Source: K189A clade bacterium (GTDB taxonomy: Bacteria; Pseudomonadota; Gammaproteobacteria; Pseudomonadales; Azotimanducaceae). From it: DNA of 40,227 nt. Positions 16,509-40,227 of the stretch are shown one piece after another. The stretch is taken from NCBI GenBank assembly GCA_902631405.1, contig CACOYI010000014.1:1-40227 (forward strand). Direction: 5' to 3'. The position numbers and the translations under genes are program-made. The notes beneath the pieces are model-generated. The model was not told where the DNA came from and did not search any database. It was given only the letters and a program-made list of their open reading frames with translations. The number at the start of each line of letters is the position of its first letter. Position 1 is the stretch's first letter.

Positions 16509-16577
16509 CAAACCCAGGATGAGAGATAAAGTTTTTGATGATTAGAAAATTTTTCTGTCGCGCGTTTCATTATTATT

Positions 16578-17312: not shown

Positions 17313-17316
17313 CCCA

Positions 17317-18222: not shown

Positions 18223-18264
18223 GAATTTTTATCCTTGAAAAGAAATATTGTAGCTTGGAATCTG

Positions 18265-20395: not shown

Positions 20396-20399
20396 AGTT

Positions 20400-23739: not shown

Positions 23740-23752
23740 TTGGCGTGGCTCC

Positions 23753-24691
23753 CTAAATCAGCCCTAGTTTCTCGTCGCAACCCAACATTATATTGAGATT
23801 CTGTATCGCGGAACCGGCGGCCCCTTTAACGAGGTTGTCGTACCTCGCAATTAGATGTATCTGTTCACGGTTACCGAATACCATAAGCTCCATGTCATTT
23901 GTTTCATTACAGCCAAGTGGATTAAGAAAATCATCTGTCAAAGGCTGAGATGAGCCAATTGGAATTACCTTTATAAATCTCTCATTTTCGTAACGATTAC
24001 GAAGGCAGTCGTATACATCTTTTGCGTGGTGTCCGTTCAACTCTGAAGAGAATAATGAGATTTGGATGGTCATGCCTCTATAAAACGAGCAGACAGTAGG
24101 TATAAAAATCGGACGCACCACTGAGCCCGAATGAATCTGCATCTCACTAATGTGTTTGTGGTCAAGGTTGAGACCGTAAATTCGACTAACCATGGCCTCA
24201 TCATCGCTGGGCGTTTTTCCCAATTTTGAAATCATCGCTTTCCCGCCGCCCGAATAACCTGACAAAGCGTTACATCGAAGCAAAGTTTCAGCTCTCAGTA
24301 TCCCCTCTTCAATCAATGGTCTCACGAGTAACAAATATCCTTGCGGATAGCAGCCCGGATTTGAAACTTTCTCTGCGCCGGCTATTCTCTGCCGTTGAGT
24401 GCTCGTAAGTTCAGGTAAACCGTAGGTCCAATCTTTGTGGATTCGATGGGCTGTGCTCGCATCGATCACCCTGCATTTATCTCCAATGGCTTCAGCCGCC
24501 TCTGCTGCGGCCTGATCAGGCAGGCAGAGTATGACAATGTCTGCCTTCGTGTAGATTGCTGAGCGCGCCGACAGGTCTTTTCTCGAATGCTCGGGAATCT
24601 GCAGGATCGTAAGATCCTTGCGCTTGGCAAGTCTACTAGCCAGCTCCAGGCCTGTGGTGCCAGCTTGTCCATCAATGAAAACATTTGTCAT
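23753..24691 (-). CDS. argC: N-acetyl-gamma-glutamyl-phosphate reductase (short, type 2 form)
   Basis: A 312-residue NADPH-dependent reductase of arginine synthesis. Seen are VFIDGQAGTTGLEL at the N-terminus (nucleotide binding), VIDASTAHR, the catalytic cysteine in VSNPGCYPQG, CNALSGYSGGGK, and the late ARYDNLVKGAAGSAIQN. The length fits the roughly 310-residue type 2 ArgC. The ATG at 24691 begins the conserved protein; the open frame extends 32 codons further to a TTG at 24787, but those residues are not ArgC-like. This leaves about 90 bases behind the glycosyltransferase stop. Confidence 0.92.
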   Translation of the reverse strand: MTNVFIDGQAGTTGLELASRLAKRKDLTILQIPEHSRKDLSARSAIYTKADIVILCLPDQAAAEAAEAIGDKCRVIDASTAHRIHKDWTYGLPELTSTQRQRIAGAEKVSNPGCYPQGYLLLVRPLIEEGILRAETLLRCNALSGYSGGGKAMISKLGKTPSDDEAMVSRIYGLNLDHKHISEMQIHSGSVVRPIFIPTVCSFYRGMTIQISLFSSELNGHHAKDVYDCLRNRYENERFIKVIPIGSSQPLTDDFLNPLGCNETNDMELMVFGNREQIHLIARYDNLVKGAAGSAIQNLNIMLGCDEKLGLI

Positions 24692-24783
24692 AAATTTCTT
24701 TTGCCTTGGAAGTAAAAGTTCTCTCCCCGCTCGAACAAATCGGATGCGATCATAACTCAAGAGGGACAGTACCGATATGCAAT

Positions 24784-25914
24784 TCAAATTGATTCATGCT
24801 TCTGCTTTTTTGTCTTCATTATCGCCAGCAAGCTTTTGTCTGGATATTCAAGTCGCATTTGATTGATAAACCGCAAAGTTTTCAAAGCATCGAACCAGTT
24901 GGTCAGTTGCTGTAATTTTTGGTGCGGGTCGATTCTCTGTCGGTTTATCTGATCTACCTGCTTTATTATTCCCAAGTCAATCAAAGTCTTAATTGCCAGG
25001 AACTCTGCTTTGTCCGTTGTGTTTTGAGATTGACGGCTCCGAAAATCATTAAGAAATTCTGGGTTTCTGCTGATCTGTTTAATGTGTTCTAGAGCGCACT
25101 TGAGAGCCCCAAAACAAAGTTCGTTGTAACTTTTAAAATCGCCCTCTGACCCGTCTTGATCGAGGAGAGAGCTTATTTTTTTGAGATTAGTTCCGGTGCC
25201 GAAGGGCACTCTGTCAGATAATCTTGCTTCAATTTCAATTGGAGCGCCGGCCACAGATTTGATTTGGGTAAGTTTTCGAATTTTGTTCAACATGTAAAAG
25301 TCCTCGCCCGCGCTTTTCTTTGGGAAACCGCGGACCGCGGCGTAAGTTGATGCTTCGATTACCATCGTACTGCCAAGAGCGGTAAAGCCGAAAATACTCC
25401 CACTTTCGGATAAAGACTTTTCATAATATTCCATATGCAGCTCATAAAGTCTGGCGCATTTTTGTAATGCGGTGTCTCTGCTCACGTGCTTGAATGGAAA
25501 AAGTGCGGCGCCGGCAACTGGTAAATTCCGAAAGAAGTAATCCGAAGGCAAAACAGCGTCAGCATCGGTCTGGTAGATCCATCGGGATTTGATTTTATTT
25601 TGAGCGATGAGGGAAAGTGCGACGTCAGATCCTATCTTTCTTGCTAACCCAACCCCTTCTTTGGGCGGTATTCTCTGCCCCTCGGTGACACGATCCACTA
25701 TCAGCAAAGGAAACGGCGAACTTCGTCTTAATGCGTCTAGACAAGCAATTGTTCGCTCGATCTTTTCTGGTAAATATTGGACTCGTGAATCTCTAACGTA
25801 TGTCTGTTCTGGCGCATTGACTACTGGGATTATGAGCGTGTCGCGTGTCGTTATGTTCTTGAATACTGAATCAAGGCAATCGGATTGCTCGTTGAATATG
25901 GGTACCACCAGCAC
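24784..25914 (-). CDS. Glycosyltransferase family 2-like protein (N-terminus uncertain)
   Basis: A 376-residue GT-A-type protein. LVVPIFNE opens the nucleotide-binding fold, YQTDADAVLP (about 114-123) carries the DXD-like metal motif, and SAGEDFYML (about 217-225) supplies the acidic catalytic/donor residues. A helical C-terminal region follows. The acceptor is unknown. The first canonical start is the GTG at 25914, but there is no ribosome site before it. The same frame is open and protein-like for about 40 codons upstream (to 26043), without any ATG, GTG or TTG; CTG at 25998 or ATA at 26025 could be the real start. The true N-terminus is therefore unsettled. Confidence 0.75.
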   Translation of the reverse strand: MLVVPIFNEQSDCLDSVFKNITTRDTLIIPVVNAPEQTYVRDSRVQYLPEKIERTIACLDALRRSSPFPLLIVDRVTEGQRIPPKEGVGLARKIGSDVALSLIAQNKIKSRWIYQTDADAVLPSDYFFRNLPVAGAALFPFKHVSRDTALQKCARLYELHMEYYEKSLSESGSIFGFTALGSTMVIEASTYAAVRGFPKKSAGEDFYMLNKIRKLTQIKSVAGAPIEIEARLSDRVPFGTGTNLKKISSLLDQDGSEGDFKSYNELCFGALKCALEHIKQISRNPEFLNDFRSRQSQNTTDKAEFLAIKTLIDLGIIKQVDQINRQRIDPHQKLQQLTNWFDALKTLRFINQMRLEYPDKSLLAIMKTKKQKHESI

Positions 25915-26045
25915 ATTTGAGAAAATAGCTTGAGAGCCAAATTGCTCTTCGAACCTTAAGATAGAAAACTGGCTTTCTTTTTCGGCGTGTCTCTCCAGAT
26001 ACTTGTTAATGAGGATGCTGTTTATGGTTAGCCCCGCTATTTAGG

Positions 26046-26639
26046 TCAGTGGAGGCGGGCGCTTATGGGTAATCCCGATAAGATATCGTTCTCGATCTCA
26101 GACAGTTCGTTGAATCTTGATATGATCTCGCTCTCAGGATAATTACCTGAAGCTAGATTGACGAATAAAACCCAATGCCTTGCTTCACTCTTTGCTAGGT
26201 TACGGTAAAAATTGGCCAACTGGGTATCCTCGAGGTGGTGGGCTATGAGTTCGAATCTCTCTGCGCCTCTTCGCTCGATCAGTGCTGCGATGAGCAATCT
26301 GTCGAGCAGAAATTCGTCTCGACCTTTTCGTGCCTTTCGATTCAATTCGGCAACGTAGTTGTCTTTACGATCCGATTGAGGGACTAACCCCCGTTTTAGA
26401 ATGAGGTTGATCACCTGCTTGTAATGGGCGAGTTCCTCTATCGCCAAATCGGCCATGGCAGTCAGGATGTCTGGGCGATCTGGATAATGAGAAGCCATGC
26501 TTAAAGCCATTCCCGAAGCTTTCTTTTCGGCGGATGCATGATCCGACAGAAAAGTGTTGAAGTCAGCGAGCACGGCTTCCACCCATTGGGACTGGGTTGT
26601 ATCGAGATTTACTAGTCCTCGTAAATTGATTTTAGCCAT
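26046..26639 (-). CDS. miaE: MiaE-like tRNA-(ms2io6A) hydroxylase
   Basis: A 197-residue ferritin-like diiron protein. The iron ligands are visible as Glu in HASAEKKASG, E-x-x-H in IEELAHYKQ, Glu in RRGAERFELIAHH, and E-x-x-H in SEARHWVLF. This order and the W-VL-DF--FL-DHA beginning match MiaE, which hydroxylates the isopentenyl group of ms2i6A37 in certain tRNAs. The ATG at 26639 has AAGGA nine bases upstream and overlaps the esterase gene by 28 bases; an ATG at 26669 is the alternative. Confidence 0.9.
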   Translation of the reverse strand: MAKINLRGLVNLDTTQSQWVEAVLADFNTFLSDHASAEKKASGMALSMASHYPDRPDILTAMADLAIEELAHYKQVINLILKRGLVPQSDRKDNYVAELNRKARKGRDEFLLDRLLIAALIERRGAERFELIAHHLEDTQLANFYRNLAKSEARHWVLFVNLASGNYPESEIISRFNELSEIENDILSGLPISARLH

Positions 26640-27268
26640 GTCTCTAGGTCCTTGATTTCCTGAGGACATACCTGATGCCCCATGGAATACTCATGCCACT
26701 CCACCTTATATCCTAGCTCAAGCAGCTTTTGTCGGGATGTGACGGCTCTAGTTATCGGGATCATTGGATCTGCTAGACCATGAGCCATAAATATCTTCGT
26801 ATCTAGGTTAGCTAAAGCAACTCTTTGCGTAAGTTCCTCGTGATTATTAACGTAAGTGGACAAAGCCATAATTCCAGCAAATTTCCGTTCTGCAACCAGC
26901 CCGGATTCTAGCGCTATAACCCCGCCTTGCGAGAAGCCAGCTACCGTGATCTTCCCATGAGCGACTCCTTTCTCTAGTTCATCTTCGATTAATTCCTCTA
27001 TGTGCGCCCTTGACGCGTCTATATCGTCCTGGTCAGCGATCGAGGAGCCCTCTCGAATGTCGTACCAGGCTCGCATTTCCATTCCACCATTTATTGTTAT
27101 TGCGCGCTTTGGAGCATTGGGAAAAATGAAACGGAGTGGAGCTTCAATTTCGAACATATCCACAAGGGGTTGAAAATCAGTAGCGTCTGCACCCAAACCG
27201 TGAAGCCAAATAACCGTTCCTACTGGATCTGCCCCCGTTTCATTGATCAGACACTCTAGTGAAGCCAT
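26612..27268 (-). CDS. Alpha/beta hydrolase, phospholipase/carboxylesterase family
   Basis: A 218-residue Abhydrolase_2 member. IWLHGLGADATDFQPLV (about 19-35) is the oxyanion strand, AGFSQGGVIAL (about 109-119) holds the nucleophilic Ser, HGLADPMIP the Asp and MGHQVCPQE the His. This set matches the EstB/YpfH-like bacterial carboxylesterases of about 220 residues, which cut short-chain esters or thioesters. No signal peptide. The ATG has AAGGA nine bases upstream, and this is the first gene of the long leftward run. Confidence 0.9.
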   Translation of the reverse strand: MASLECLINETGADPVGTVIWLHGLGADATDFQPLVDMFEIEAPLRFIFPNAPKRAITINGGMEMRAWYDIREGSSIADQDDIDASRAHIEELIEDELEKGVAHGKITVAGFSQGGVIALESGLVAERKFAGIMALSTYVNNHEELTQRVALANLDTKIFMAHGLADPMIPITRAVTSRQKLLELGYKVEWHEYSMGHQVCPQEIKDLETWLKSIYED

Positions 27269-27385
27269 ACTTTTTATTCCTTTTTAATAAAATTCGTGTT
27301 TTGTATGTCGATTTCCGAAATTTGAGAAGAGCCTAATTTTCACTTTATTTTCCGGGAAAAACTATAACGTCCATGACACAAGATT

Positions 27386-29167
27386 TTGCATTTTAGCGAA
27401 AGAGAAATTGTCGAGGTTGCTTTGAAGGAAGGTTCGAGATCAGCTACCGCTCTAAGGTTTTTGAAGCCGTACACGGGGAAAATAGCAATTGCGACGGTTG
27501 CACTTACGCTTACCGCTAGCGCCATGTTATCGCTTGGCCAAGGGATCCGCATAATTATCGACTCTGGGTTCGCCAGTGGTGAACAGGATCTCTTGACGAA
27601 TTCTCTTCTGTTTTTCGGCATTGTAGCCTTCGTTTTGACTGTTGGAACATATATTCGTTTTTATTTTGTATCGATGATTGGTGAGGAGATTACGGCGGAT
27701 TTGCGGAGAGCCGTTTTTGATCACCTCGTTTGGGTCCGCCCTAACTTTTTTGACGTTAATTCCGCGAGCGAGATTCAATCTAGGATCACCACGGATACGA
27801 CCCTAATACAAACAGTGGTTGGCTCATCGCTTTCTGTCGCCGTTCGCAACATTCTCATGCTTGTAGGTGGCGTAATCCTGCTTTTTATAACGAATTTTAA
27901 ATTATCGGTGATCGTTCTGGCTTGTGTACCTCTGGTCGTTTTCCCGGTGGTCTTCTTCGGCCGAAAAGTAAGAACTCTCTCGTACGAGTCTCAAAACAAG
28001 ATTGCTGACGTGGGGGTACATGTGGGCGAAAGTTTTCGAAATCTGAAGATTCTACAATCTTTTAACCACGAGAAATTAGATATGCAGAGGTTTGCGGAAA
28101 TAGTCGGCATCTCCGTAGCTGTATCTATAAAACGAATCAAATATAGAGCTGCTCTTACTGCGGCGGTGATGGTCCTTGCCTTCGGCGCGATCGCGGCCTT
28201 GATATATATAGGAGGAGTTGACGTACTATCTGGGAAAATTTCGCCCGGAGATTTGGCAGCCTTCATTTTTTATGCCTTCCTTGTAGCAGGCGCTCTTGGG
28301 GCGGTGTCGGAAGTTTGGGGAGAATTGCAACGAGCTCTCGGTGCAGCCGAGAGATTGATTGACCTACTCTTCGTTCCGCAAGTAGAGAGCAAGGCGGTAG
28401 TTGCTTCGCGAACTTCAGTAAACGATGCTGATCCGCAGACCTTAAAACTTACAAACGTTACTTTCGGATACGAGACAAGGCCTGGAGAAAAGGCGTTGCG
28501 CGATATTTCGTTTGCAGTGCCGGCGAAGTCGATGGTTGCTATTGTTGGTCCCTCTGGAGCTGGAAAGAGTACGGTCTTCGATCTTATACAAAGATTCTAC
28601 GAGCCAGACTGCGGAAAAATATTTTGGGGAGGACGGGATCTAAGTGAACTTTGTTTGTCTTCGGTTAGGAGTCTTTTCGGATATGTGCCTCAGGATCCAG
28701 GGCTCTTCTCTGGGTCGATTAGAGATAACGTTATTTATGGTCACCCTCTAGCAACAATTGAAGAGATAAAACTTGCGCTACGAAACGCTCACTGTGATCA
28801 GTTCATCGCAGAATTGCCTGCTGGATTGGAGACGATTTTAGGGGAAGGAGGAGCTGGTCTATCGGGTGGGCAAAAACAACGCCTAGCGATTGCAAGAGCA
28901 ATGATAAAATCGCCGGCATGCCTTCTTCTAGACGAAGCTACCAGCTCTCTGGATGCGGATAGTGAGGACTACATTGGTGAATCACTAAAGAAATACAAGA
29001 GTCACATCAGCTTGTTGGTCATCGCCCACCGGCTATCGACGGTTAGATCAGCGGATCACATTGTAGTTCTGGACAAGGGAGAGTGCGTGGCAAGTGGAAC
29101 ACATGATGAACTATTAGAGGGAAGCGAAATTTATAGGCGTTTTGCCAAAGTTCAATTTATTGAATAG
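27386..29167 (+). CDS. ABC exporter, fused transmembrane and ATPase domains (MsbA-like)
   Basis: A 593-residue half-transporter that would dimerise. Six membrane helices fill about 30-330, starting ALRFLKPYTGKIAIATVALTL. The ATPase domain has Walker A VGPSGAGKST, Q-loop GYVPQDPGLFSGSI, signature LSGGQKQRLAIARAM, Walker B CLLLDEAT and switch histidine AHRLSTVRSAD. It resembles MsbA and lipid or multidrug exporters; the cargo is unknown. The start is uncertain: TTG at 27386 lacks a ribosome site, whereas TTG at 27422 has GAGG five bases upstream and would give 581 residues. TTCACT (27346) and TATAAC (27363) make a weak promoter candidate upstream. It faces dinB with only 6 bases between stops. 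Confidence 0.88.
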   Translation: MHFSEREIVEVALKEGSRSATALRFLKPYTGKIAIATVALTLTASAMLSLGQGIRIIIDSGFASGEQDLLTNSLLFFGIVAFVLTVGTYIRFYFVSMIGEEITADLRRAVFDHLVWVRPNFFDVNSASEIQSRITTDTTLIQTVVGSSLSVAVRNILMLVGGVILLFITNFKLSVIVLACVPLVVFPVVFFGRKVRTLSYESQNKIADVGVHVGESFRNLKILQSFNHEKLDMQRFAEIVGISVAVSIKRIKYRAALTAAVMVLAFGAIAALIYIGGVDVLSGKISPGDLAAFIFYAFLVAGALGAVSEVWGELQRALGAAERLIDLLFVPQVESKAVVASRTSVNDADPQTLKLTNVTFGYETRPGEKALRDISFAVPAKSMVAIVGPSGAGKSTVFDLIQRFYEPDCGKIFWGGRDLSELCLSSVRSLFGYVPQDPGLFSGSIRDNVIYGHPLATIEEIKLALRNAHCDQFIAELPAGLETILGEGGAGLSGGQKQRLAIARAMIKSPACLLLDEATSSLDADSEDYIGESLKKYKSHISLLVIAHRLSTVRSADHIVVLDKGECVASGTHDELLEGSEIYRRFAKVQFIE

Positions 29168-29173
29168 CGGCTT

Positions 29174-30253
29174 CTACAAATTCAATGATTCTTGCCGGTC
29201 ATCGGTCGTTTTGCTTAATGCGTCTCTAAGTTCGACCCCTACTCCTAACAAACGAATCGGAGTATTTTTTCGAGTCACGCCTTTTTTCAGAAGTTCGTGA
29301 AAAACACTCGAATCTATTTCTTGGGCTTGTCGAGAAACAGTTGTTTGCGTGAAATCGGAAAACTTTATCTTTATTGTCAGTGCTTTTATCGAAGGAGCAG
29401 GGCTAAGCTTCAAAAGTCGTTCCCGGAGATCGATTATCAGTGGATCAAGTTTTTCCAAACAAAGATTGATGTCCATCAAATCTTTGGAAAATGTTCGCTC
29501 GGTGCTCAGTGATTTTCGCTTTCTTTCGACGCTGAGCTCGCGCTCATCAATACCTCGGCAAAGTTTGAAAAGAGTTTCACCAAACTTACCAAACCTAGCG
29601 GTCAGATCTAGTTCTTTCAAACCCTGCAAATCGCCGCAAGTGAAGATATTTAATTTCTTCAATTTTTCGGCCGTAACTTTTCCAACTCCGAAAATTTTAT
29701 CTACCGGTAGATTCAGGATGAATTGCTGAACCTCGCTAGGGGCTATCGTGAATTCTCCATCTGGCTTATTCCAATCCGACGCGATTTTTGCGAGGAACTT
29801 ATTCGGCGCGATGCCCGCGGAAATAGTTATTCCGACTCGTTCTTTTACTTTTTGTCTTATTTCTCTTGCGATAAGGGTAGCGCTTCCTCCCAGATGATCA
29901 CTATCAGTTACGTCTAAAAAAGCTTCATCCAGGGATAAGGGTTCGATTAATGACGTATATTCTTTGAAAACTTGGTGAACTGATTTGGACGCTGCTCGAT
30001 ACTTTTCCATATTGGTTGGAACAACGATTAGCCAAGGTATTATTTTAAGGGCCCTCGACATGGGCATCGCGGAATGCACGCCCAAATTCCTGGCGGCGTA
30101 ATTACAGGTTGCTACTACTCCCCGAGCGTTTGGCGAGCCGCCAACTGCTAGAGGCTGGCCAACAAGGCTAGGATCGTCTCTCTCCTCTACAGAGGCATAA
30201 AAGCTATCGCAATCACAGTGTATTATTTTCCTTTGGCGGCCCCGTCTTTCCAT
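29174..30253 (-). CDS. dinB: DNA polymerase IV (Y family)
   Basis: A 359-residue translesion polymerase. Catalytic acids are in HCDCDSFYASVE (Asp14) and SLDEAFLDVT; Tyr19 sits at the steric-gate position that is Phe13 in E. coli. Other Pol IV marks are GVVATCNYAARNLGVHSAMP, SAGIAPNKFLAKIASDWNKP and FGVGKVTAEKL. The C-terminal QESLNL fits a beta-clamp binding motif. I see no LexA operator (CTGT-N8-ACAG) in the 180 bases upstream, so SOS control is not evident here. Confidence 0.95.
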   Translation of the reverse strand: MERRGRQRKIIHCDCDSFYASVEERDDPSLVGQPLAVGGSPNARGVVATCNYAARNLGVHSAMPMSRALKIIPWLIVVPTNMEKYRAASKSVHQVFKEYTSLIEPLSLDEAFLDVTDSDHLGGSATLIAREIRQKVKERVGITISAGIAPNKFLAKIASDWNKPDGEFTIAPSEVQQFILNLPVDKIFGVGKVTAEKLKKLNIFTCGDLQGLKELDLTARFGKFGETLFKLCRGIDERELSVERKRKSLSTERTFSKDLMDINLCLEKLDPLIIDLRERLLKLSPAPSIKALTIKIKFSDFTQTTVSRQAQEIDSSVFHELLKKGVTRKNTPIRLLGVGVELRDALSKTTDDRQESLNL

Positions 30254-30432
30254 ATTCTTATAGACGTATTCGTTCCCTTTTAAAGCATATCATGACCCTT
30301 GATTTGGGCAGCTAGCACTTACGTTGAGACGCCTTGGTATTCAAAATGAAAGGCTTAGCGAATCCACTAATTTTTTTGTTGATAGATTCTTCGAGTTGCT
30401 TGATCCTCAGATACATAAATGGAGGACTTCTT

Positions 30433-30933
30433 ATGAGCGTCGAGTTATTAGACAGCCCTAGATTCTATGGCTATCGAGTAAGACGTCAGATAGGCGGGAA
30501 AGCCTATCAGGAGTATCTCTCACTAATAAAAGACGGAAAGAGACTAAAAGGCAAGCATCGTATCCTGGTCAAAAATCAGGCCGAGCTACGGGATACAGAG
30601 CTTAAAAAACTTCAATCAAAAAATAAGAAAAAACTTGATAAAACAGTAAAGTTCAACGGGAAAGGCCAGGTTAAGGGAATCCTATTTCGTATGAAGAAGG
30701 AGAGGAGTGGAAGGCTGTCCCCAGTCTTTCAGGTCGGTGTTTTCTCAAGACTGGATGATAAGGTCGTGAGCACTACTGTCTCCATCAATAGGCACGGTCG
30801 TGTAGCAGCTTGGCAAAGAGCAGTAAATTTTTATTGCGAGCATAAATTGGTCTCCAAACGCACCAAGGCTTATGAGCAGTTGATTTCCCAGTGTCCTACG
30901 GGTCGCGAAATAGAAAAACTTATTAAGAGTTAG
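30433..30933 (+). CDS. Basic orphan protein, possibly AP2/ERF-like DNA-binding
   Basis: A 166-residue Lys/Arg-rich protein that I do not recognise with confidence. The ATG at 30433 has GGAGG at 30421-30425, seven bases away, a very good ribosome site; the longer frame to 30334 lacks one. Two regions look like degenerate copies of an AP2-type fold: FYGYRVRRQIGGKAYQEYLSL (about 10-29) and VFQVGVFSRLDDKV then HGRVAAWQRAVNFYCEH (about 100-140), with a linker of about 20 residues dominated by lysine (LKKLQSKNKKKLDKT). A DNA or RNA binding role is inference from charge and pattern. It stands alone between dinB and the acyl-CoA synthetase. Confidence 0.7.
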   Translation: MSVELLDSPRFYGYRVRRQIGGKAYQEYLSLIKDGKRLKGKHRILVKNQAELRDTELKKLQSKNKKKLDKTVKFNGKGQVKGILFRMKKERSGRLSPVFQVGVFSRLDDKVVSTTVSINRHGRVAAWQRAVNFYCEHKLVSKRTKAYEQLISQCPTGREIEKLIKS

Positions 30934-30991
30934 CCGATAAAAGCCATGGCCTTTAGTTCCTTGAACATAGAACAGAATAAGGAATCGAACT

Positions 30992-32875
30992 TTGAATTAT
31001 AGAGATGAATATAGACGTTCAATCGACGCCAAAGAAGATTTTTGGGAAGAGAAATCGAAAGATTTACCTTGGCTTAAAGAACCTACAAAAATGCTTACCG
31101 TGGGGGCTGATGGCTCTCCCTCATGGTTTGATGGAGGATTCCTAAACACATGCTATGCCTGCTTAGACCATCATGTCGACGCTGGGAGAGGGGACCAAGA
31201 CGCTCTCATTTATGACTCCCCAGTTAGCAATACGATTGAAACCTATTCCTTCTCAGAGTTACGCGATCGAGTCGCGCGCGTTGCGGGCTCTTTGAAGAAG
31301 TTGGGCGTAACACAAGGTGCTGTCGTTATTATTTATATGCCGATGATTCCAGAAGCTGTCATTTCAATGCTAGCTTGCGCTCGGATAGGCGCAATTCACT
31401 CAGTAGTTTTCGGTGGCTTTGCTCCAGAAGAGTTGTGTCTGAGGATAGATGACGCAAAACCTGAGGTCATACTATCTGCGTCATGTGGAATAGAATTTGA
31501 GAAGATCATTCCATATCAGCCTTTAATACGTGAAGCGCTCAGACTAGCCAAACATCAACCCAAAGCGGTCGTCATAAAATCCCGTAAAGAAATACCAGCC
31601 CCTGACTTGGGGTCCACAGAACTTGACTGGGATCTTTGGGAAGCGGATTCAGTTCCGGTCGATTGCGTAGCCCTTCCGGCAAGCCATCCCCTTTATATTC
31701 TTTACACCTCTGGCACCACGGGGAAACCCAAGGGAATTGTTCGCGATAATGGAGGCCATGCTGTGGCACTGAAATACAGTATGAAGGCCGTCTATGATGT
31801 GCAAGAAGGAGATGTTTTCTGGGCTGCCTCCGATGTTGGTTGGGTCGTAGGGCACTCTTATATCGTTTATGGGCCCTTGCTTGCAGGCTGCACGACTGTT
31901 TTGTACGAGGGTAAACCCGTTAAAACTCCTGATGCGGGGGCATTTTGGCGAGTTATTTCCCAACATAGGGTGAAAGTGTTTTTTGTCGCGCCCACTGCGA
32001 TTAGGGCGATCAGAAAAGAGGATTCGCAAGGAAAACTAATAGAACCATATGATATTTCGACTCTGGAGAGTCAATTCGTGGCCGGTGAGCGCTTGGATCC
32101 AGCTACTTACAGGTGGCTTGTTCAGCATCTAAAAATACCCGTGATTGATCATTGGTGGCAGACCGAGACGGGCTGGCCGGTCTGCTCCTCTTTTCCAGGC
32201 ATGCAAGAATTGGATACCAGGGAAGGGTCATGCGGAAAGCCTTGTCCGGGTTGGGATGTGATGGCGCTGGATGAAGAAGGAACGATTGTAGACCCCGGAG
32301 AAGAGGGTAGCTTAGTTTTTGGGTCGCCATTGCCACCCGGGGCGCTCTTGACAGTTTGGGGAGATGAAAAACGTTTTCACGATTCTTATTGGAAGAGATT
32401 CCCGGGTTTTTATCTTACCGGTGATTCCGGGTTTCTCGACTCAGATGGTTTTGTTTACGTAATGGGCAGAACGGATGACGTAATAAATGTTGCGGGGCAC
32501 AGATTATCGACGGGGCGAATGGAGGAGGTCTTAGCCGCTGATTCCGCCGTTGCCGAGTGCGCCGTGGTAGGGAAGAAAGATCCAGAAAAGGGAGAAATCC
32601 CCGTTGGTTTTGTGATTCTCAATTTAGGATTTAATACGAAAGAGGAGGAAGTTGTTAAAAGTTTAGTTAAGTTGATGCGAGAATCGGTTGGCGCCTTCGC
32701 CAACTTTAAGCTGGTCTTTTTTGTTGAAAAATTACCCAAAACCAGGTCAGGAAAGATTCTCAGGAGGTTGCTTAGGAGTATGATAGAAAAGGAGTCTTAT
32801 TCGATTCCTTCAACCATAGAGGACCCCGGTGTGATTAAGCATATAGAGACAGTGTTGAGTCAAAGTGCGCCATAG
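30992..32875 (+). CDS. Propionyl/acyl-CoA synthetase (PrpE-like, ANL superfamily)
   Basis: A 627-residue acyl-adenylate enzyme that aligns with PrpE from end to end. Seen are the ACS N-terminal domain, VIIYMPMIPEAVISMLACAR, GAIHSVVFGGFAPEEL, the ATP loop YTSGTTGKPKG, ASDVGWVVGHSYIVYGPLL, DHWWQTETGWP, LTGDSGFLD and GRTDDVINVAGHRLST. The C-terminal catalytic lysine lies in KTRSGKILRR. It activates propionate (or acetate or a similar short acid) with ATP and CoA. The start is a TTG with AAGGA nine bases upstream. It would supply propionyl-CoA for the carboxylase encoded at 7927-11101; this link is inference. Confidence 0.9.
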   Translation: MNYRDEYRRSIDAKEDFWEEKSKDLPWLKEPTKMLTVGADGSPSWFDGGFLNTCYACLDHHVDAGRGDQDALIYDSPVSNTIETYSFSELRDRVARVAGSLKKLGVTQGAVVIIYMPMIPEAVISMLACARIGAIHSVVFGGFAPEELCLRIDDAKPEVILSASCGIEFEKIIPYQPLIREALRLAKHQPKAVVIKSRKEIPAPDLGSTELDWDLWEADSVPVDCVALPASHPLYILYTSGTTGKPKGIVRDNGGHAVALKYSMKAVYDVQEGDVFWAASDVGWVVGHSYIVYGPLLAGCTTVLYEGKPVKTPDAGAFWRVISQHRVKVFFVAPTAIRAIRKEDSQGKLIEPYDISTLESQFVAGERLDPATYRWLVQHLKIPVIDHWWQTETGWPVCSSFPGMQELDTREGSCGKPCPGWDVMALDEEGTIVDPGEEGSLVFGSPLPPGALLTVWGDEKRFHDSYWKRFPGFYLTGDSGFLDSDGFVYVMGRTDDVINVAGHRLSTGRMEEVLAADSAVAECAVVGKKDPEKGEIPVGFVILNLGFNTKEEEVVKSLVKLMRESVGAFANFKLVFFVEKLPKTRSGKILRRLLRSMIEKESYSIPSTIEDPGVIKHIETVLSQSAP

Positions 32876-32911
32876 GGAAATGCGGATCTATAGAAAACAG
32901 GGGACACATTG

Positions 32912-33250
32912 ATGATCGTTGTGCAAGGTAATATCCCGCTTAAAGCGGAAGCAAGAGATAGGGCAATAAAACTAGCGATGGAAATCGAAGGTATATCCAA
33001 ACAGGAAGTGGGCTGTTTGGGCTATCAGTTTTATGTAGCGCTTACTGACCCCCTAGAACTGGTGTTGTTTCAACAATGGGAAAGTGTTGAAGCGCTTCGA
33101 AAACATTATCAGACAGATCATATGAGTCGTTTTATGAAGGAACTCCCTGATCTGGTTTCAGGGGACATAGTCACCAGACGATATGCGATAGAGCCCAGCG
33201 GCGATGAGGGCGCTCGGATTAAAATCGAAGAAAAGCCCACCATTCATTAG
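32912..33250 (+). CDS. ABM-domain (antibiotic biosynthesis monooxygenase-like) protein
   Basis: A 112-residue dimeric alpha/beta barrel type protein. The pattern VVQGNIPLKAEARDRAI, EVGCLGYQFY, PLELVLFQQWESVEALRKH and MSRFMKELPDLV is typical of the ABM family. Members are small heme, flavin-free oxygenases or quinol-modifying enzymes; here the function is unknown. The ATG at 32912 has AGGGGA seven bases upstream and lies 36 bases after the synthetase, so the two probably share an mRNA. It is convergent with the wrbA-like gene; the 84-base gap shows no convincing terminator. Confidence 0.8.
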   Translation: MIVVQGNIPLKAEARDRAIKLAMEIEGISKQEVGCLGYQFYVALTDPLELVLFQQWESVEALRKHYQTDHMSRFMKELPDLVSGDIVTRRYAIEPSGDEGARIKIEEKPTIH

Positions 33251-33334
33251 CGCTTTGGCTTAAAAAGCTAACTGTTTCTGTAGGAAATGAGAACTCGACC
33301 CTAAAACAAAGCTAATCGAAGCATATTCTGAACT

Positions 33335-33937
33335 TTATGAAAGGTTGAGCGCGAGACGCGCAATTCTCTCGCCGGCTTTTCTTGCTATTACAACTTCATC
33401 CTGTGAGAGTTTGACAAAAGTCTTGCCTTCTCCAGTCACATGAGAGGGACCGTAGGGAGATCCACCTGTTTTGGTAACTCCTAGTTCTCCGACGGAGTAA
33501 GGAACCCCTGTTATGACCATCCCGTGATGGAGCAATGGAATCATCATCGAAAGTAACGTTGATTCTTGTCCTCCGTGCATAGAGGAGCTAGAGCAAAACA
33601 CGCTCGCTGGCTTCCCCTCGAGTTGGTTGCTGGACCAAATATCGGCAGTTGAATCTAAGAAGTATTTAAGTTGGGCAGCCATGTTTCCAAACCTGGTGCC
33701 TGACCCCATAGACAAACCACTACAAAGTCTCAACTCCTCCTTTTTACAGAACGGGTGGACACTTTTTGCAGTGGACGGGGCCGTAGAGTCATTTGCTGAG
33801 TGAATATCTGGCACTGTTCTTATTTTGGGATGGATGCCTGGGACGCTGTCTATGCCTCTGGCTATTTCCACCGCAAGTGATTTCGTTGCGCCACCAGTTG
33901 AGTGGTAAAGAACTAAAACATAAGGTTCTTCAGTCAT
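33335..33937 (-). CDS. wrbA: WrbA-like NAD(P)H:quinone oxidoreductase (flavodoxin fold)
   Basis: A 200-residue flavodoxin-like protein. VLVLYHSTGGATKSLA (about 7-22) is the FMN phosphate loop, GSGTRFGNMAAQLKYFLD is the WrbA motif (usually GSPTRFG), and SSSSMHGGQESTLLS then HHGMVITGVPYS complete the family pattern. WrbA proteins reduce quinones by two electrons and help against oxidative stress. Its ATG overlaps the arsC-like gene stop as ATGA, so the two are coupled. Confidence 0.88.
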   Translation of the reverse strand: MTEEPYVLVLYHSTGGATKSLAVEIARGIDSVPGIHPKIRTVPDIHSANDSTAPSTAKSVHPFCKKEELRLCSGLSMGSGTRFGNMAAQLKYFLDSTADIWSSNQLEGKPASVFCSSSSMHGGQESTLLSMMIPLLHHGMVITGVPYSVGELGVTKTGGSPYGPSHVTGEGKTFVKLSQDEVVIARKAGERIARLALNLS

Positions 33938-34302
33938 AATAGATCAAATACTTTGTTGGGAGGCCTGCAAATGAGGGCTCTTTGCTCTGTCATAACGATA
34001 GGGCGCTCCATCAAAATCGGATGCCTTTCAATCAAGCCAGCTACTAGGCTAGGTGTCAGTTCGTTTTCGGGTATCGCCATCATTAGAAAAAGTTCTTCAT
34101 GTTTCCTTAAAAGCTTATCCGCGGGCTCATCCAATAAATCAATTAACCGAACTATTTCCTCTTTTCCAGGTGGATTTTCTAGGTACTCCAACTTATAAAA
34201 CTCTTTCTCCGCGTCTTGAAGTAGTTCGAGGACCGCTCTGGATTTCGAGCAAGACGGATTGTGAAAAAATTTTAGCAACGGGTTCGTTCCAGCATTGGTC
34301 AT
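33934..34302 (-). CDS. ArsC-like (YfgD-type) thioredoxin-fold reductase
   Basis: A 122-residue ArsC/Spx-family protein. The nucleotide-free active-site loop FFHNPSCSKSRAVLELL holds the reactive cysteine, with a Ser-Lys-Ser-Arg following as in ArsC and YfgD. RHPILMERPIV near the C-terminus supplies the conserved arginine pattern of the family. It may reduce arsenate with glutaredoxin, but YfgD-type members are not always arsenate reductases. The ATG at 34302 is preferred to a TTG at 34317. It is divergent from the thioredoxin-like gene at 34400. Confidence 0.85.
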   Translation of the reverse strand: MTNAGTNPLLKFFHNPSCSKSRAVLELLQDAEKEFYKLEYLENPPGKEEIVRLIDLLDEPADKLLRKHEELFLMMAIPENELTPSLVAGLIERHPILMERPIVMTEQRALICRPPNKVFDLL

Positions 34303-34399
34303 GAACTCATCAGTCAAGAGTTTGAGTTAATTTAATCTTCGGTAATAATGATCGCCCCCGATAGTGTAGTCAGGTCTGCAGTAAGTAAAGCCTAAGGTT

Positions 34400-34864
34400 A
34401 TGAAAATTTTCCCCCTACTTTCGTTAGCTCTTCTTTGTTTAAGCTGCACAGCGCAACAAGACGCATTGGATGACGGCAGGTTTTTTAGCTTTGATAATCA
34501 GTCCGCCGATTGGATAATTGTCAATTACTGGGCTGAATGGTGTGCCCCTTGTCGGAAAGAGATTCCCGAATTGAACGAGCTGAATGATTTTCAGATGAAA
34601 GATGGCAATGTGATAAAAGTTTATGGAGTTAATTTCGATCTCTTAGGAAGTGAGGATTTAAAACGGGTTGCCGAAAAAATGAATATCAAATTTCCAAATT
34701 TCTTGGCAGATCCGAGTTTTATGAGTAGCTCAAGTAGACCGGAAGTCCTCCCCACAACGTTCTTGTTTGATGGATCGGGTGAGCTGATTAAGGAATTCTT
34801 GGGGCCACAAACGAAGGAAGACCTTCTTGAGACTATCTCAAAAGAATTAGATTTCAGCAGTTAA
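34400..34864 (+). CDS. Thioredoxin-like (TlpA/ResA-type) secreted or lipoprotein disulfide protein
   Basis: A 154-residue protein with an N-terminal signal (KIFPLLSLALLCLSC) that could end in a lipobox-like cysteine at residue 16. The lipobox is weak, with Cys rather than Leu at -3. The thioredoxin core has WCAPC at about 47-51 in NYWAEWCAPCRKEIPELNEL and a cis-Pro in VLPTTFLFDGSG. TlpA/ResA proteins act in the periplasm on cytochrome or other thiols; a specific partner is not evident. Its 3' end overlaps proS by 18 bases on the opposite strand. Confidence 0.85.
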   Translation: MKIFPLLSLALLCLSCTAQQDALDDGRFFSFDNQSADWIIVNYWAEWCAPCRKEIPELNELNDFQMKDGNVIKVYGVNFDLLGSEDLKRVAEKMNIKFPNFLADPSFMSSSSRPEVLPTTFLFDGSGELIKEFLGPQTKEDLLETISKELDFSS

Positions 34865-36598
34865 GGAGTTATGCCGGCTAACGATTTTCTCGATAGCTTC
34901 CTTTGGCGAAAGTTTTACCATCTCCTTCGAAGAACGTGTCAAGTACTCGATCAGGTTGTCTTGTGCACCTTTCTCTCCGATTACCAGTCGATGGGGAATG
35001 CCGATGAGATCCGCCTCCGCGAATTTAACTCCCGGCCTCTCTTCACGATCGTCAAATAGAACCCCGATACCTCGCGATGAGAGTTCGTCGTAGCAATGTT
35101 CTGCGATTTCACGAACTAAATCTGATTTGTGCATATTTAGGGGAAGAAGATGAACGAAAAAGGGCGCGATTTTTTCGGGCCAGATAATACCCTCATTATC
35201 GTGATGCTGCTCAATCGCGGCGGCCACAAGACGAGTTACTCCCATGCCATAGCAACCCATGATAGCTGGTGTTTCCGTTCCTGACTCGTCCAAAACAGAA
35301 GCCTTCATAGCTTCGCTGTATTTTGTGCCCAGCTGAAAGATGTGTCCTACTTCTATACCCTTGAAAAATTTTAATTCTCCTTCTCCAGTGACGGCTTTAT
35401 CTCCGGGGGAGACGTTTCGGATATCGGTAACTCGATAATCTGTACTGGATAGATCTCTCTCGGAATTGAAACCTTCCATGTGCTTATCAACCTCGTTGGC
35501 TCCGCATACGAGATTGTTTGAAACGAAAGCCTCGTGATCGATCAAGACTTTGAGGCCACAATTTATCGGTCCAATAAAGCCGATAGGAGCATCTAGAATT
35601 TTTCTGACCTCGTTCTCGGAGGCTAGAGTGATTTCTCCCAAAACCTCCTCTTGTTTTGCCAGCTTCGTTAGATTGAGATCATGATCGCCACGAAGGACAA
35701 CAGCTAAGAAAGAATTCTTACTCACCGTCTCCTCTCCGTGATCTGAAACTCTCACAATGAGGGTTTTGAGGGTGCTCGAGGCAGGAACATTTAGAAAAGC
35801 GCACAGCTCCTCAATCGTTTTAACTCCCGGCGTAGCTATTTCGGTCAACTCATGTAACGGCGAATCAGTGGGTTCTGATTTCTTCGCTACAGCTGCTTCT
35901 AGATTCGCGGCATAACCACCTTCACTTGTGCATACGATGGTATCTTCGCCAATGTCTGACAAGACGTGAAATTCATGGGATTTTTGCCCTCCTATATTGC
36001 CGCTATCAGCTTCTACTGCACGGTAATCGAGATCTATTTCATTTAAAATTGAGGAGTAGCAGGTGAACATTTTCTCGTAAGTTTGATCAAAGCTTGTGCG
36101 ATCGCTGTGAAACGAATACCCGTCTTTCATTATGAATTCTCTGGCCCTAACTACACCAAATCTAGGGCGCCGCTCGTCTCTGAATTTTGTTTGAATTTGA
36201 TATAGGTTAATGGGTAAATCCTTATAGCTTTTGATTTCTCCTCTGAAAATATTCGTTACCACTTCTTCATGTGTTGGCCCAAGACAGAATGCCCGGTCAT
36301 GGCGATCTTTAATTCGCATCAGCTCGGGTCCCATCGCCTCCCATCTGCCAGTCTCCTCCCATAGTTCTGCCGGTTGAATGACAGGCATCAGAATTTCCTG
36401 CGCGCCAATTGAGGCAAGTTGTTTCCTAATGATCGCCTCTATTTTTTTTATGACGAGTAACCCAAGAGGTAGCCAGGAGTAGATGCCACTTGCGCCTTTT
36501 CGGATTAGGCCCGATCGAACCATGAGTTGGTGGCTGACAATTTCTGCGTCCGCAGGGGATTCTTTCAAAGTTGGTATGAAGAGAGTTGTCTGTCTCAT
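34847..36598 (-). CDS. proS: Prolyl-tRNA synthetase (bacterial type with INS editing domain)
   Basis: A 583-residue class II aminoacyl-tRNA synthetase (E. coli 572). Class II motifs appear as GASGIYSWLPLG near the N-terminus, LGPTHEEVVTNI and FRDERRPRFGVVRAREFIMKDGYSFH (motif 2). An INS-type insertion follows (about 230-400, with editing-site-like ASSTLKTLIVRV), then GCYGMGVTRLVAAAIEQHHD (motif 3) and an anticodon-binding domain with LPLNMHKSD. The insertion lets the enzyme hydrolyse mischarged Ala-tRNA(Pro). The gene lies downstream of the HU gene but behind a strong terminator, so it probably has its own promoter within 36599-36664. Confidence 0.96.
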   Translation of the reverse strand: MRQTTLFIPTLKESPADAEIVSHQLMVRSGLIRKGASGIYSWLPLGLLVIKKIEAIIRKQLASIGAQEILMPVIQPAELWEETGRWEAMGPELMRIKDRHDRAFCLGPTHEEVVTNIFRGEIKSYKDLPINLYQIQTKFRDERRPRFGVVRAREFIMKDGYSFHSDRTSFDQTYEKMFTCYSSILNEIDLDYRAVEADSGNIGGQKSHEFHVLSDIGEDTIVCTSEGGYAANLEAAVAKKSEPTDSPLHELTEIATPGVKTIEELCAFLNVPASSTLKTLIVRVSDHGEETVSKNSFLAVVLRGDHDLNLTKLAKQEEVLGEITLASENEVRKILDAPIGFIGPINCGLKVLIDHEAFVSNNLVCGANEVDKHMEGFNSERDLSSTDYRVTDIRNVSPGDKAVTGEGELKFFKGIEVGHIFQLGTKYSEAMKASVLDESGTETPAIMGCYGMGVTRLVAAAIEQHHDNEGIIWPEKIAPFFVHLLPLNMHKSDLVREIAEHCYDELSSRGIGVLFDDREERPGVKFAEADLIGIPHRLVIGEKGAQDNLIEYLTRSSKEMVKLSPKEAIEKIVSRHNSLTAEI

Positions 36599-36664
36599 TG
36601 CTTTTGGGCAATCCGAAGTTGAGCCAAGGTAACAAGCCTAGTTTATAGACCCGGAATTATCACC

Positions 36665-36693
36665 AAAAAAAACCGGCCACTGGCCGGTTTTTT
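36665..36693 (-). terminator. Rho-independent terminator, bidirectional, downstream of the HU gene
   Basis: A perfect inverted repeat CCGGCC-ACT-GGCCGG (36673-36687) is flanked by eight A on the left and six T on the right. On the minus strand the hairpin is followed by a T run, so it ends the HU transcript, whose stop codon lies 21 bases upstream. It would also work on the plus strand. Confidence 0.9.
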
Positions 36694-36713
36694 CTTCGAT
36701 AGCTTAGATGTAT

Positions 36714-37124
36714 CTAGAGGATCATGTCCTTCAATTTCTTAAGAGGTGTAACTTTTACCCTCATGCTCGCGGGCTTAGCAGCAATTACCATTTCCTCGCC
36801 TGTGGCGGGATTGCGCCCCATTCGCTTTTTGCTGGCAGGCCTCTTGGCTGTCTTGATCTTAAGGAGACCGGGTAGTACAAATTCTCCTACCGCCCTCTTG
36901 CGCATATGTCTTTCAATGAGGTCTTCTAATTCGGCCATTACAGAATCTACCTGCTTTTTCGAAAGAGCTGTTTTGCTGGCGATTTCTGAAACCATCGCGC
37001 TCTTACTCATTCTCGCCTTAATACCGGGAGCTTTTTTTACTGCGGGCGCAGCCTTCTTCTTAGCAGCCGGTTTTTTTGCTTTTGCAGGAGCTTTTTTAAC
37101 TGCAGCCTTTTTTTTAGTAGCCAT
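36714..37124 (-). CDS. HU-family DNA-binding protein with histone-H1-like Lys/Ala/Pro-rich N-terminal tail
   Basis: A 136-residue protein in two parts. Residues 1-38 are a basic low-complexity tail made almost only of Lys, Ala and Pro with repeated KKA/PAKA units, like histone H1 or AlgP tails. Residues from about 39 are an HU/IHF fold: MSKSAMVSEIASKTALSKKQ, FVLPGLLKIKT, and the DNA-arm motif GRNPATGEEM followed by KPASMRVKV. The tail should add non-specific DNA affinity and chromosome compaction. It has its own promoter (37250-37278) and terminator, so it is a single-gene unit. The ATG has AAGGA eight bases upstream. Confidence 0.9.
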   Translation of the reverse strand: MATKKKAAVKKAPAKAKKPAAKKKAAPAVKKAPGIKARMSKSAMVSEIASKTALSKKQVDSVMAELEDLIERHMRKRAVGEFVLPGLLKIKTAKRPASKKRMGRNPATGEEMVIAAKPASMRVKVTPLKKLKDMIL

Positions 37125-37249
37125 AAGTGTTCCTTTGGGATGATTTTGCTAAGAGCAAATGGTTGGGTTTCATGTTCAGCATGTTGGGTAGATTACCGAC
37201 CTTGAGTTGTTAATACCTAGTCATCACTTCCAAAAATGCTGACGGAAGT

Positions 37250-37278
37250 TTTATAGCTGAACCAGTGTGGGTGATCAA
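37250..37278 (-). promoter_or_regulatory. Sigma70-type promoter for the HU gene
   Basis: On the minus strand TTGATC (37278-37273) and TATAAA (37255-37250) are separated by exactly 17 bases, close to the TTGACA/TATAAT consensus. Transcription would start near 37243, leaving a leader of about 120 bases before the HU ATG at 37124. No hairpin or riboswitch was recognised in that leader. Confidence 0.5.
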
Positions 37279-37285
37279 CAAAAAG

Positions 37286-37316
37286 TGGACAAAATTACTG
37301 TCTTTTTAGCAATAAT
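37286..37316 (+). promoter_or_regulatory. Candidate promoter for the FmdB-aspS unit
   Basis: TGGACA (37286-37291) and AATAAT (37311-37316) on the plus strand each match consensus at five of six positions, but the spacer is 19 bases, longer than ideal. It is placed about 45 bases before the FmdB ATG in the 236-base divergent region 37125-37360, which contains nothing else that I can identify. Confidence 0.3.
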
Positions 37317-37360
37317 TTTAAGATCATTTGCCCCTGTTTTAAGTTGTTGAAGAGTTCTGA

Positions 37361-37717
37361 ATGCCAATTTATGAATATGCGTGCAGATCTTGTGGGCATG
37401 AATTCGAGGAATTGCAAAAGATAAGCGAGAAACCATTGGTGAAGTGCCCCAGTTGCGGGGATAAGTCTCTGGTCAAAAAAGTCTCGGCAGCGGGCTTTCG
37501 CTTAAAGGGGGGCGGCTGGTATGAAACCGACTTCAAAACGAAAGCAAAAAAAGATAATGATGCTGCTCCTGCCGAATCTGGCGGAAAGAATTCCGACTCA
37601 AACTCGAGCTCAGCAGAAGTTAAGAAGACGAAGGATGACAAATCGACTAACAAGGATAAATCTAAATCAACGAAGGATGCTAGTTCAGCCAAAAAGACTC
37701 CGAAAAAGGAATCTTGA
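37361..37717 (+). CDS. FmdB-family zinc ribbon protein
   Basis: A 118-residue protein. The N-terminal zinc ribbon has Cys8-x2-Cys11 and Cys29-x2-Cys32 in the order [12 protein letters not shown] and VKCPSCG, then [14 protein letters not shown], the standard FmdB/regulatory-family signature. The rest (about 60-118) is a Lys/Ser/Asp-rich, probably disordered tail. The function of such proteins is poorly known; they often sit beside aspS in proteobacteria, as here. The stop overlaps the long upstream frame of aspS, and the aspS ATG follows 41 bases later. Confidence 0.9.
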
Positions 37718-37758
37718 TCAGTTATTTTGCAGTTGAGCGCGATAACAAAAGGAAAGCC

Positions 37759-39519
37759 ATGCGAAGCCACCTATGCGGCGAGGTAAAAGGGGATTGTGAA
37801 GGAAAAGAAGTCGAGGTTTATGGCTGGGTCCATAGGCGTCGTGATCACGGTGGAGTTATATTCCTAGATGTGCGCGATCATTCAGGTATTTTGCAGGTCG
37901 TCTTCGATCCTGACTTCAAAGATAGTTTCGAGGTAGCCGATTCGGTAAGAAATGAATACGTACTGAGAGCAACTGGTCGGGTTAGAAAGCGCCCGGCAGG
38001 ATCCGAAAACCCTGATATGGCCACCGGTGAGGTAGAGGTCTTGGGGTCTGATTTGGAAGTACTGAACGAAGCGAAAACCCCGCCGTTTCAATTGGACGAG
38101 TACTCCGAAGCTGGAGAAGATATCAGATTAAGATATCGGTATCTGGATTTGCGTCGCCCTGAAATGCAAGCGAGGTTAAGGACGAGGTCCCTCATAACTT
38201 CGCAGATTCGCAATTTCCTGGAGGCGAACGGTTATCTGGATATTGAAACGCCAACACTGTCCAGATCCACGCCTGAGGGCGCGCGGGATTACCTTGTCCC
38301 AAGTAGAACTCAGCCGGGGCAATTTTTTGCTCTCCCTCAGTCTCCTCAGATCTATAAGCAGCTTTTGATGATGTCCGGTATGGATCGTTACTATCAGATT
38401 GCTCGTTGTTACCGCGACGAGGATTTACGCGCTGATAGACAACCAGAATTTACTCAAGTCGATATCGAGGCGTCGTTCGTCGATCAAAACGAAATCATGA
38501 AACTGACGGAAGAGTTGTTTAAATCATTGTGGAAAAATCTGCTCGATATTGAGCTGGAAGATTTCCCAGTAATTTCTTGGTTGGATGCGATGAGGAATTT
38601 CGGTGTTGACCGACCTGATCTCAGAAACCCCCTCAGATTGATTGATATTAACGATTTGATGGGGTCGGTGGATTTCCAGGTCTTCAAAGAACCGGCTAAT
38701 GACCCAGATAGCAGAGTGGTGGCTTTGCTGGCGCCAGGAGGCGGGGAGTTATCTCGAAAAATGATTGATGAATATACCGAGTATGTAGGTCGATATGGAG
38801 CGAAGGGACTTGCTTACATAAAGGTGAATGATGTCGAGTCGGGTATTGAGGGCCTGCAGTCGCCAATCATAAAGTTTTTGCCTGTAGAAGTCGTGCTGAA
38901 AGTCATTGAAAGAGTTGGTGCGCAAGATGGAGACCTTATTTTCTTTGGCGCGGGAAAAGCGAAGGTTGTAAATGACTCTATTGGAGCACTGCGAAATAAA
39001 TTAGGTGCTGATCTCGATTTGGTAGAAGCTGGCTTTAAGTGTTGTTGGGTTATTGATTGGCCTATGTTTCAAAAGGGGTCCGATGGAAGACTCAGCGCTG
39101 AACACCATCCTTTCACCAGCCCCACTTGTTCGCCCGAAGAGTTGCTCACTGCCCCAGAGAAGGCGCACGCTGCTGCCTATGATGTTGTTGTCAACGGATA
39201 TGAGTTAGGCGGTGGTTCGATTAGGATTGCCAACAAATCGATGCAAGCGGCGGTTTTTGAAGTTTTAAATATGGGTAGCGCGGCTCAAGAGGACTTCGGA
39301 TTTTTCCTTGATGCTCTCGAATACGGAGCACCGCCGCATGGTGGCATCGCTTTGGGGCTGGACAGAATAGCGATGCTTCTGACCGGCAGCACTTCGATAA
39401 GAGACGTGATAGCTTTTCCGAAAACCCAGACAGCGTCTTGTTTGATGATGGAAGCGCCTAGCGTGGTCGACGCAAGTCAAATAAGAGACCTTCATCTACG
39501 CTTGCGAGATAGATCCTAA
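37759..39519 (+). CDS. aspS: Aspartyl-tRNA synthetase, probably non-discriminating (Asp/Asn)
   Basis: A 586-residue class II synthetase (E. coli 590). Seen are the N-terminal OB anticodon domain ([20 protein letters not shown]), [61 protein letters not shown], the bacterial GAD insertion (about 290-420) and [19 protein letters not shown] (motif 3). His30 in RRRDHGG matches His31 of the Pseudomonas-type non-discriminating enzyme; E. coli has Leu there. Such an enzyme also charges tRNA(Asn) with Asp for repair by GatCAB. The ATG at 37759 has AAGGAAA upstream and begins the conserved protein; a TTG at 37714 does not. Confidence 0.95.
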
Positions 39520-39602
39520 CGGCAGGAGGAGTTAACCTCGAGAACGAGAGTCGAAAGCTTGAGGCGACCCTATAGTCATATCTGATAATTACGAGGTGAA
39601 CG

Positions 39603-39671
39603 ATGGCGGGGCATAGTAAGTGGGCCAATATCAAGCATAGAAAAGCTGCACAGGATAAAAATTCTGAATAA
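39603..39671 (+). pseudogene. yebC: yebC 5' fragment, cut by an inverted join
   Basis: The ATG at 39603, 84 bases after aspS and with GAGGTG before it, opens MAGHSKWANIKHRKAAQDK, the unmistakable N-terminus of the YebC/TACO1 translation or transcription factor (normally about 245 residues). After 19 codons (39659) the homology stops, and a stop codon follows three codons later. The next bases are the reverse strand of ruvA. The fragment is therefore the left side of the join described at about 39660. Confidence 0.9.
39657..39665. other. Inverted junction between yebC and ruvA (chimera or inversion breakpoint)
   Basis: Plus-strand yebC sequence is recognisable up to about 39659, and minus-strand ruvA sequence from 39663. 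The overlap or filler is at most a few A/T bases, so no long repeat joins them. No transposase or terminal repeat is present. The expected downstream order in gammaproteobacteria is yebC, ruvC, ruvA, ruvB on one strand. Confidence 0.8.
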
Positions 39672-39881
39672 CTCTCTCTCATTTGCATCAGAAAACCCAA
39701 ACAACTGCTGCACGTCTTCTCTGACGACAAAATGGGTTGAGAGTTCAATGTCATTTCCAACCGATGCCTTGGATTCCAATACACTAGCGCTAACTTCGAC
39801 TTCGTAACCAACTCCGGCTACATCCACAAGTAAGCAGTGGCCATCGATTTCTACTAAAACGCCACGAAGTCGGCCAATCAA
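39663..39881 (-). pseudogene. ruvA: ruvA 5' fragment, cut by an inverted join
   Basis: From a TTG at 39881 the minus strand gives MIGRLRG, VDVAGVGYEVEVS, THFVVREDVQQLFGF and ERELFR. These are residues 1-73 of the Holliday-junction protein RuvA (normally about 200), covering the N-terminal OB domain. Past 39663 the frame runs into the antisense of yebC and the aspS downstream region (open until 39576) and no longer resembles RuvA. Domains II and III are missing. The start lies 13 bases after the ruvC stop, the normal ruvC-ruvA arrangement. Confidence 0.9.
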
Positions 39882-39894
39882 ACCAGAACCTTTT

Positions 39895-40227
39895 CTATGC
39901 TTTATTCAAGAGAGTATCGACATGACAGAGCGCAATGGCAAGTGCATCTGCTGCATCTGACGAGGGTACGTCGGGCAGATTCAGTAAAGCCTTAACCATG
40001 AAGGCCACCTGTTCTTTGCTCGCAGTACCGGTTCCAGCCAAGTTTTTTTTAATAAGGCGCGGAGAATAAGAGAAGATTGGCAGCTTCGCGGACTTGGCCG
40101 CCGCAACCGCAACTCCACGCGCCTGCCCTAACTTTAGCGCTGAAGAGGCGTTCCTCGATACGAAGACATCCTCGACAGCCATCACAACAGGGTTTAGCTC
40201 TGATATGACTTGCTCGACTCCACTATG
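39895..40227 (-). CDS. ruvC: Crossover junction endodeoxyribonuclease RuvC, N-terminus off the window
   Basis: The minus strand frame is open to the window edge and codes for 110 residues up to the stop at 39895. AVEDVFVSRNASSALKLGQARG contains the second catalytic Glu, and SSDAADALAIALCH contains the two final catalytic Asp residues; GTGTASKEQV matches the DNA-binding loop. About 60 N-terminal residues, including the first catalytic Asp, lie outside. RuvC resolves Holliday junctions together with RuvAB. The visible part is intact, but it points opposite to aspS and yebC, because of the inverted join to its left. Confidence 0.92.
   Translation of the reverse strand, partial: HSGVEQVISELNPVVMAVEDVFVSRNASSALKLGQARGVAVAAAKSAKLPIFSYSPRLIKKNLAGTGTASKEQVAFMVKALLNLPDVPSSDAADALAIALCHVDTLLNKA

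Follow-up and report, generated by a model that had tools for sequence, protein, structure and literature searches.

The window that we analyzed is the entire contig C14 (40,227 bases) of G000, a K189A clade assembly of 82 contigs and 1.6 Mb that is estimated to be 73% complete. Near its right end, an intact gene for aspartyl-tRNA synthetase (aspS) is followed on the plus strand by the first 19 codons of yebC and then, without a gap, by ruvA and ruvC on the minus strand. This arrangement, described in a first-pass annotation of the DNA, was confirmed both by the open reading frames and by alignment with L032, a locus on contig C101 of G038, the nearest relative that a search of 39 genomes in the genus turned up (AspS 94% identical). 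In L032, the 3′ part of aspS is followed by intact yebC, ruvC, ruvA, and ruvB, all on one strand. The features at the right end of the window, with the basis of each assignment, are as follows:

37759..39519, plus strand: aspS (aspartyl-tRNA synthetase), intact; open reading frame
39603..39661, plus strand: yebC 5′ stub, 19 codons plus 2 bases; L032 597–655, plus strand
39654..39661, no strand assigned: junction microhomology GATAAAAA, 8 bases, common to both parents; comparison with L032
39654..39881, minus strand: ruvA 5′ part, codons 1–76, TTG start, frame open; L032 1862–2089, opposite strand
39895..40227, minus strand: ruvC 3′ part, residues 48–157 plus stop, cut by the contig end; L032 1516–1848, opposite strand

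The yebC reading frame opens with an ATG at 39603, and the match to YebC ends at 39661, where its last 8 bases also belong to ruvA. Read on the minus strand, ruvA (39881–39654) abuts this stub, and ruvC (40227–39895) then reaches the end of the contig. Window positions 39301–39661 correspond to L032 305–655 on the plus strand and positions 39654–40227 to L032 2089–1516 on the minus strand, in both cases with 85–86% identity. The two segments therefore meet in opposite orientations (L032 2–655 on the plus strand versus 2089–1516 on the minus strand), at points that lie 1,434 bp apart in the relative (L032 655 to 2089). This alignment places the truncation of ruvA after residue 76, whereas the first annotation had it after residue 73. 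The distance of the join from the end of the window, previously put at less than 600 bases, is 566 bases, and this end is a true contig end.

The exact overlap at the join is 8 nt (GATAAAAA, 39654–39661), and the same 8 bases are present in the relative at L032 648–655 (plus strand, in yebC) and at 2089–2082 (minus strand, in ruvA). Among 200,000 inverted joins drawn at random from L032, the frequency of overlaps of 8 bases or more was 0.00014. The first-pass annotation had reported neither a repeat nor a mobile element at this point; no mobile element was indeed seen at the join, but the 8-base microhomology had been missed. An inversion mediated by a repeat or an element was considered and rejected, the longer imperfect repeats lying elsewhere and the join having only the 8-base overlap. 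Away from the join, a 16-base motif occurs twice in near-identical form (one mismatch), at 39630–39645 within yebC and on the other strand at 39890–39905, just upstream of ruvA; L032 has AGGAAAG at both places where the window has AGAAAAG, and this pairing is probably due to chance.

We compared the locus with its counterparts in two sets of relatives that overlap in the genomes they contain. An aspS match was obtained in all 40 genomes searched (G000 and 39 of its genus), although those in G011, G034, and G035 were only weak and probably represent related synthetases. The genus set comprised 30 loci, 29 from the AspS search together with L032. In all 30, the gene after aspS is yebC, in the same orientation, and ruvC comes next in all 29 loci that reach that far; ruvA is reached in 20 of the 30 and ruvB in one. 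The second set, from a genome collection, contained 40 loci, mostly from records labeled Gammaproteobacteria or Pseudomonadales, with some labeled K189A or OM182. Here the order aspS-yebC-ruvC-ruvA-ruvB was complete in 34, and one further locus, at a contig end, held aspS with an incomplete yebC. The remaining five held aspS only: L047, L063, and L070 terminate within aspS or shortly downstream of it, and L071 and L072 come from other phyla. The comparison with related genomes that had been proposed thus gave a uniform answer, with the normal one-strand order in every locus that holds yebC (30/30 in the genus set and 35/35, of 40 loci, in the genome collection) and the inverted join in none (0/30 and 0/35, respectively), although a very recent inversion need not be shared by relatives. 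The same gene content as in the aspS-yebC-ruvC-ruvA-ruvB cluster of gammaproteobacteria, whose order is intact in L032, flanks the join in C14, whereas the cluster itself is broken there by the inverted join and by the contig end.

The rest of the contig follows the relative closely. Two 20 kb searches against G038 (window 1–20000 and 20228–40227, with 20001–20227 lying outside the queries) returned collinear blocks on G038 contigs C47, C89, C62, C104, and C101 at 86–88% identity. These blocks meet at the ends of G038 contigs, and about 0.5 kb (window 4743–5211) was unmatched. The only rearrangement seen in the window relative to G038 is the yebC/ruvA join. Neighboring G038 contigs (C89/C62/C104/C101) overlap by about 54–55 bases at their ends, as in contigs from a k-mer graph. 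Among the 82 stretches of G000 compared, there were no contig-end overlaps save two weak matches of 29–38 bases, and the idea that overlapping contig ends mark graph breaks in G000 was rejected, such overlaps not occurring among the ends sampled.

The only matches that YebC, RuvA, and the full-length L032 contig gave anywhere in G000 were the two pieces at the join. In this 73% complete assembly, no match was found to L032 656–1515 or 2090–8557, no match was obtained with the RuvB protein (a search that had no positive control alongside), and the search with full L032 found no second copy of the region elsewhere. The second breakpoint that the first-pass annotation had suggested seeking, at which the rest of yebC would be joined to the rest of ruvA, was likewise not found. 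Given the completeness of the assembly, its absence could be due to chance and is not conclusive alone.

To place the join among the other contig ends of G000, we surveyed 81 of them (both ends of C1–C40, including C14, and the left end of C41), together with the whole of C82, against 62 stretches of G038 (1.17 Mb, about half of its 2.4 Mb). Before counting, we discarded any match that was about 100 bases long or shorter, or that fell below 72% identity. Any match was kept for 29 of the 81 ends, and in 23 it reached to 100 bases or less from the end of the contig; the other six, which had inner matches only, stopping at the edge of a G038 contig or stretch, were left out of the count. Sixteen of the 23 were collinear over 2.9–3.0 kb, five ran off the G038 contig or stretch, and two broke. 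The two breaking ends were the right end of C14, at the yebC/ruvA join, and the right end of C7. Apart from C14, breaks thus occurred in 1 of 22 comparable ends, five of which were compared over a short stretch only, and chimeric ends are not frequent in G000, a point that weighs against the amplification chimera proposed below. Among eight contig ends of G038, which is metagenome-assembled (the starts of C47, C89, C62, C104, C101, C25, and C36, and the end of C104), none had such a break. In two places, neighboring G000 ends are separated in G038 by short gaps, as if by fixed-length trimming: C9 right and C28 right (against G038 C7, L164) by about 204 bases, and C43 left and C19 left (against G038 C36, L193) by about 220 bases.

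Contig C7 follows G038 contig C25 for 14.5 kb, up to C7:53957, and then switches to G038 contig C36. Its last ~497 bases (53954–54451; L124 2503–3000) correspond to G038 C36:8297–8793, within an open reading frame that looks by eye like an amino-acid permease and is cut at the join. The transition is sharp: C25 is matched at 99 of 103 bases ahead of it and C36 at 86 of 94 bases beyond it. Four bases (ATCA) are covered by both alignments; the permease copy in G038 reads ATTA, however, which leaves only one base of certain overlap. The two pieces lie on different contigs of G038, and their relative orientation could be either. By the order in G038, the native place of the terminal piece is between the right end of G000 C6 and C43; if G000 shares that order, this place falls in an assembly gap. 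The C7 join looks false as well, although it might represent a real difference from G038. Gene-breaking joins within several hundred bases of a contig's end occur at least twice in G000.

Inverted joins of this kind have been described for multiple displacement amplification (MDA) with phi29 polymerase. In DNA amplified from a single E. coli cell, 406 of 475 chimeras (85%) were reported to be inversions, the joined segments mostly lying less than 10 kb apart, with priming at 2–21 nt of complementarity; of the inverted joins spanning less than 10 kb, 93.5% had complementary bases at the junction (Lasken and Stockwell, 2007; PMC1855051). A re-analysis from 2015 gives overlaps of mostly 5–8 nt and distances of 0–5,000 nt, most commonly 250–300 nt (PMC4595205), and a paper setting a standard for single-cell genomes names chimeric molecules among the known products of MDA (PMC6436528). 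The yebC/ruvA join, which is inverted, spans 1.4 kb, and has an 8 nt overlap, falls within all of these published ranges. Inversion, short distance, and short overlap are thus features common to the phi29 chimeras and to the C14 join. The failure to find a reciprocal junction agrees with such a chimera too, less strongly because the assembly is 73% complete. The published chimeras are, however, read-level events, whereas the C14 join is built into a contig from DNA whose amplification is itself deduced. Contigs of less than 2,000 bp were discarded in a compendium of marine single-cell genomes (PMC10224968); the length of C82, the last-numbered contig of G000 (2,022 bp), is in keeping with a pipeline using a 2,000 bp filter, and is no proof of it.

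These observations lead us to conclude, with considerable confidence, that the join is false and was made before or during sequencing, most likely as a phi29 MDA chimera in a single-cell assembly. Of the two possibilities raised in the first-pass annotation, in-place inversion and false join, it had leaned toward the latter in the form of a chimera. The chimera is well supported, but the in-place inversion is not, there being no reciprocal junction or remaining yebC/ruvA sequence found in the 73% complete assembly and a further gene-breaking join on C7. We infer three elements of this explanation: amplification by MDA, a single-cell origin, and low local coverage. During amplification, a displaced 3′ end would have come to a halt either within yebC, at GATAAAAA, or within ruvA, at its complement TTTTTATC. 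Either strand may have been the growing one, the new template lying downstream in one reading and upstream in the other. The 3′ end would then have paired with the same 8 bases on a displaced strand, at a distance of about 1.4 kb, and been extended, joining codon 19 of yebC to codon 76 of ruvA in inverted orientation. With poor coverage, the chimeric molecule may have been all that the assembler had, and the contig would cross the join and stop 566 bases later. This link between chimeras and contig ends is our own reasoning and is not drawn from the papers cited.

A false join might also have come from elsewhere if the genome had been assembled from a metagenome and had never been through MDA: as a chimeric library molecule formed by PCR or ligation, or as a misjoin by the assembler. 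Microhomology could be used by any template switch, and the C7 join, with little certain microhomology, would suit such an origin. We nevertheless regard this as unlikely. An overlap of 8 bases is shorter than the k-mers usually used in assembly, and an assembler on its own has little reason to join sequences at such a point; an inverted arrangement spanning 1.4 kb belongs to the MDA class; and all eight of the contig ends counted in the metagenome-assembled G038 were free of such a break.

Much less probable is a real and recent inversion between yebC codon 19 and ruvA codon 76, produced by microhomology-mediated recombination and breaking both genes. The 8-base microhomology would suit such a mechanism too, and the uninterrupted reading frames in the ruvA and ruvC pieces would be expected if the inversion were very recent. 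On the other side, neither a reciprocal junction nor any other yebC, ruvA, or ruvB sequence was found in the (incomplete) assembly, and both the position at a contig end and the presence of a second gene-breaking join on C7 would have to be coincidences. Compared with G038, the differing codons number 13 synonymous and 7 amino-acid-changing in the 76 codons of ruvA, and 27 synonymous and 16 amino-acid-changing in the 110 codons of ruvC. This synonymous excess, in which no decay is apparent after the divergence from G038, is the pattern expected of genes still under selection, but it counts only against an old inversion, because a very recent one would show no decay. In a real fold-back, a template switch at a replication fork in the cell would have given an inverted duplication whose palindromic join encloses a loop of 1.4 kb and leaves no reciprocal junction behind. 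This would account for the missing reciprocal join no less well than MDA, but we consider it scarcely credible, because a normal copy should remain and none was found in the assembly, the contig ends before re-entering its own sequence, and the C7 join, with its pieces on different G038 contigs, is left unexplained.

There is accordingly only a slight chance that a real microhomology-mediated inversion or fold-back broke yebC and ruvA in this marine gammaproteobacterium, leaving the cell without RuvAB-dependent branch migration of Holliday junctions. The earlier statement that the cell would lack intact RuvA and YebC does not follow, being conditional on a real join. We attach no biological significance to the join itself, which matters as a point of quality control: the truncated yebC, ruvA, and permease-like genes that an annotation of G000 would report should not be taken as gene loss, and caution is advisable with the terminal few hundred bases of each of its contigs. 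The chromosome of the cell very probably carries an intact aspS-yebC-ruvC-ruvA-ruvB cluster on one strand.
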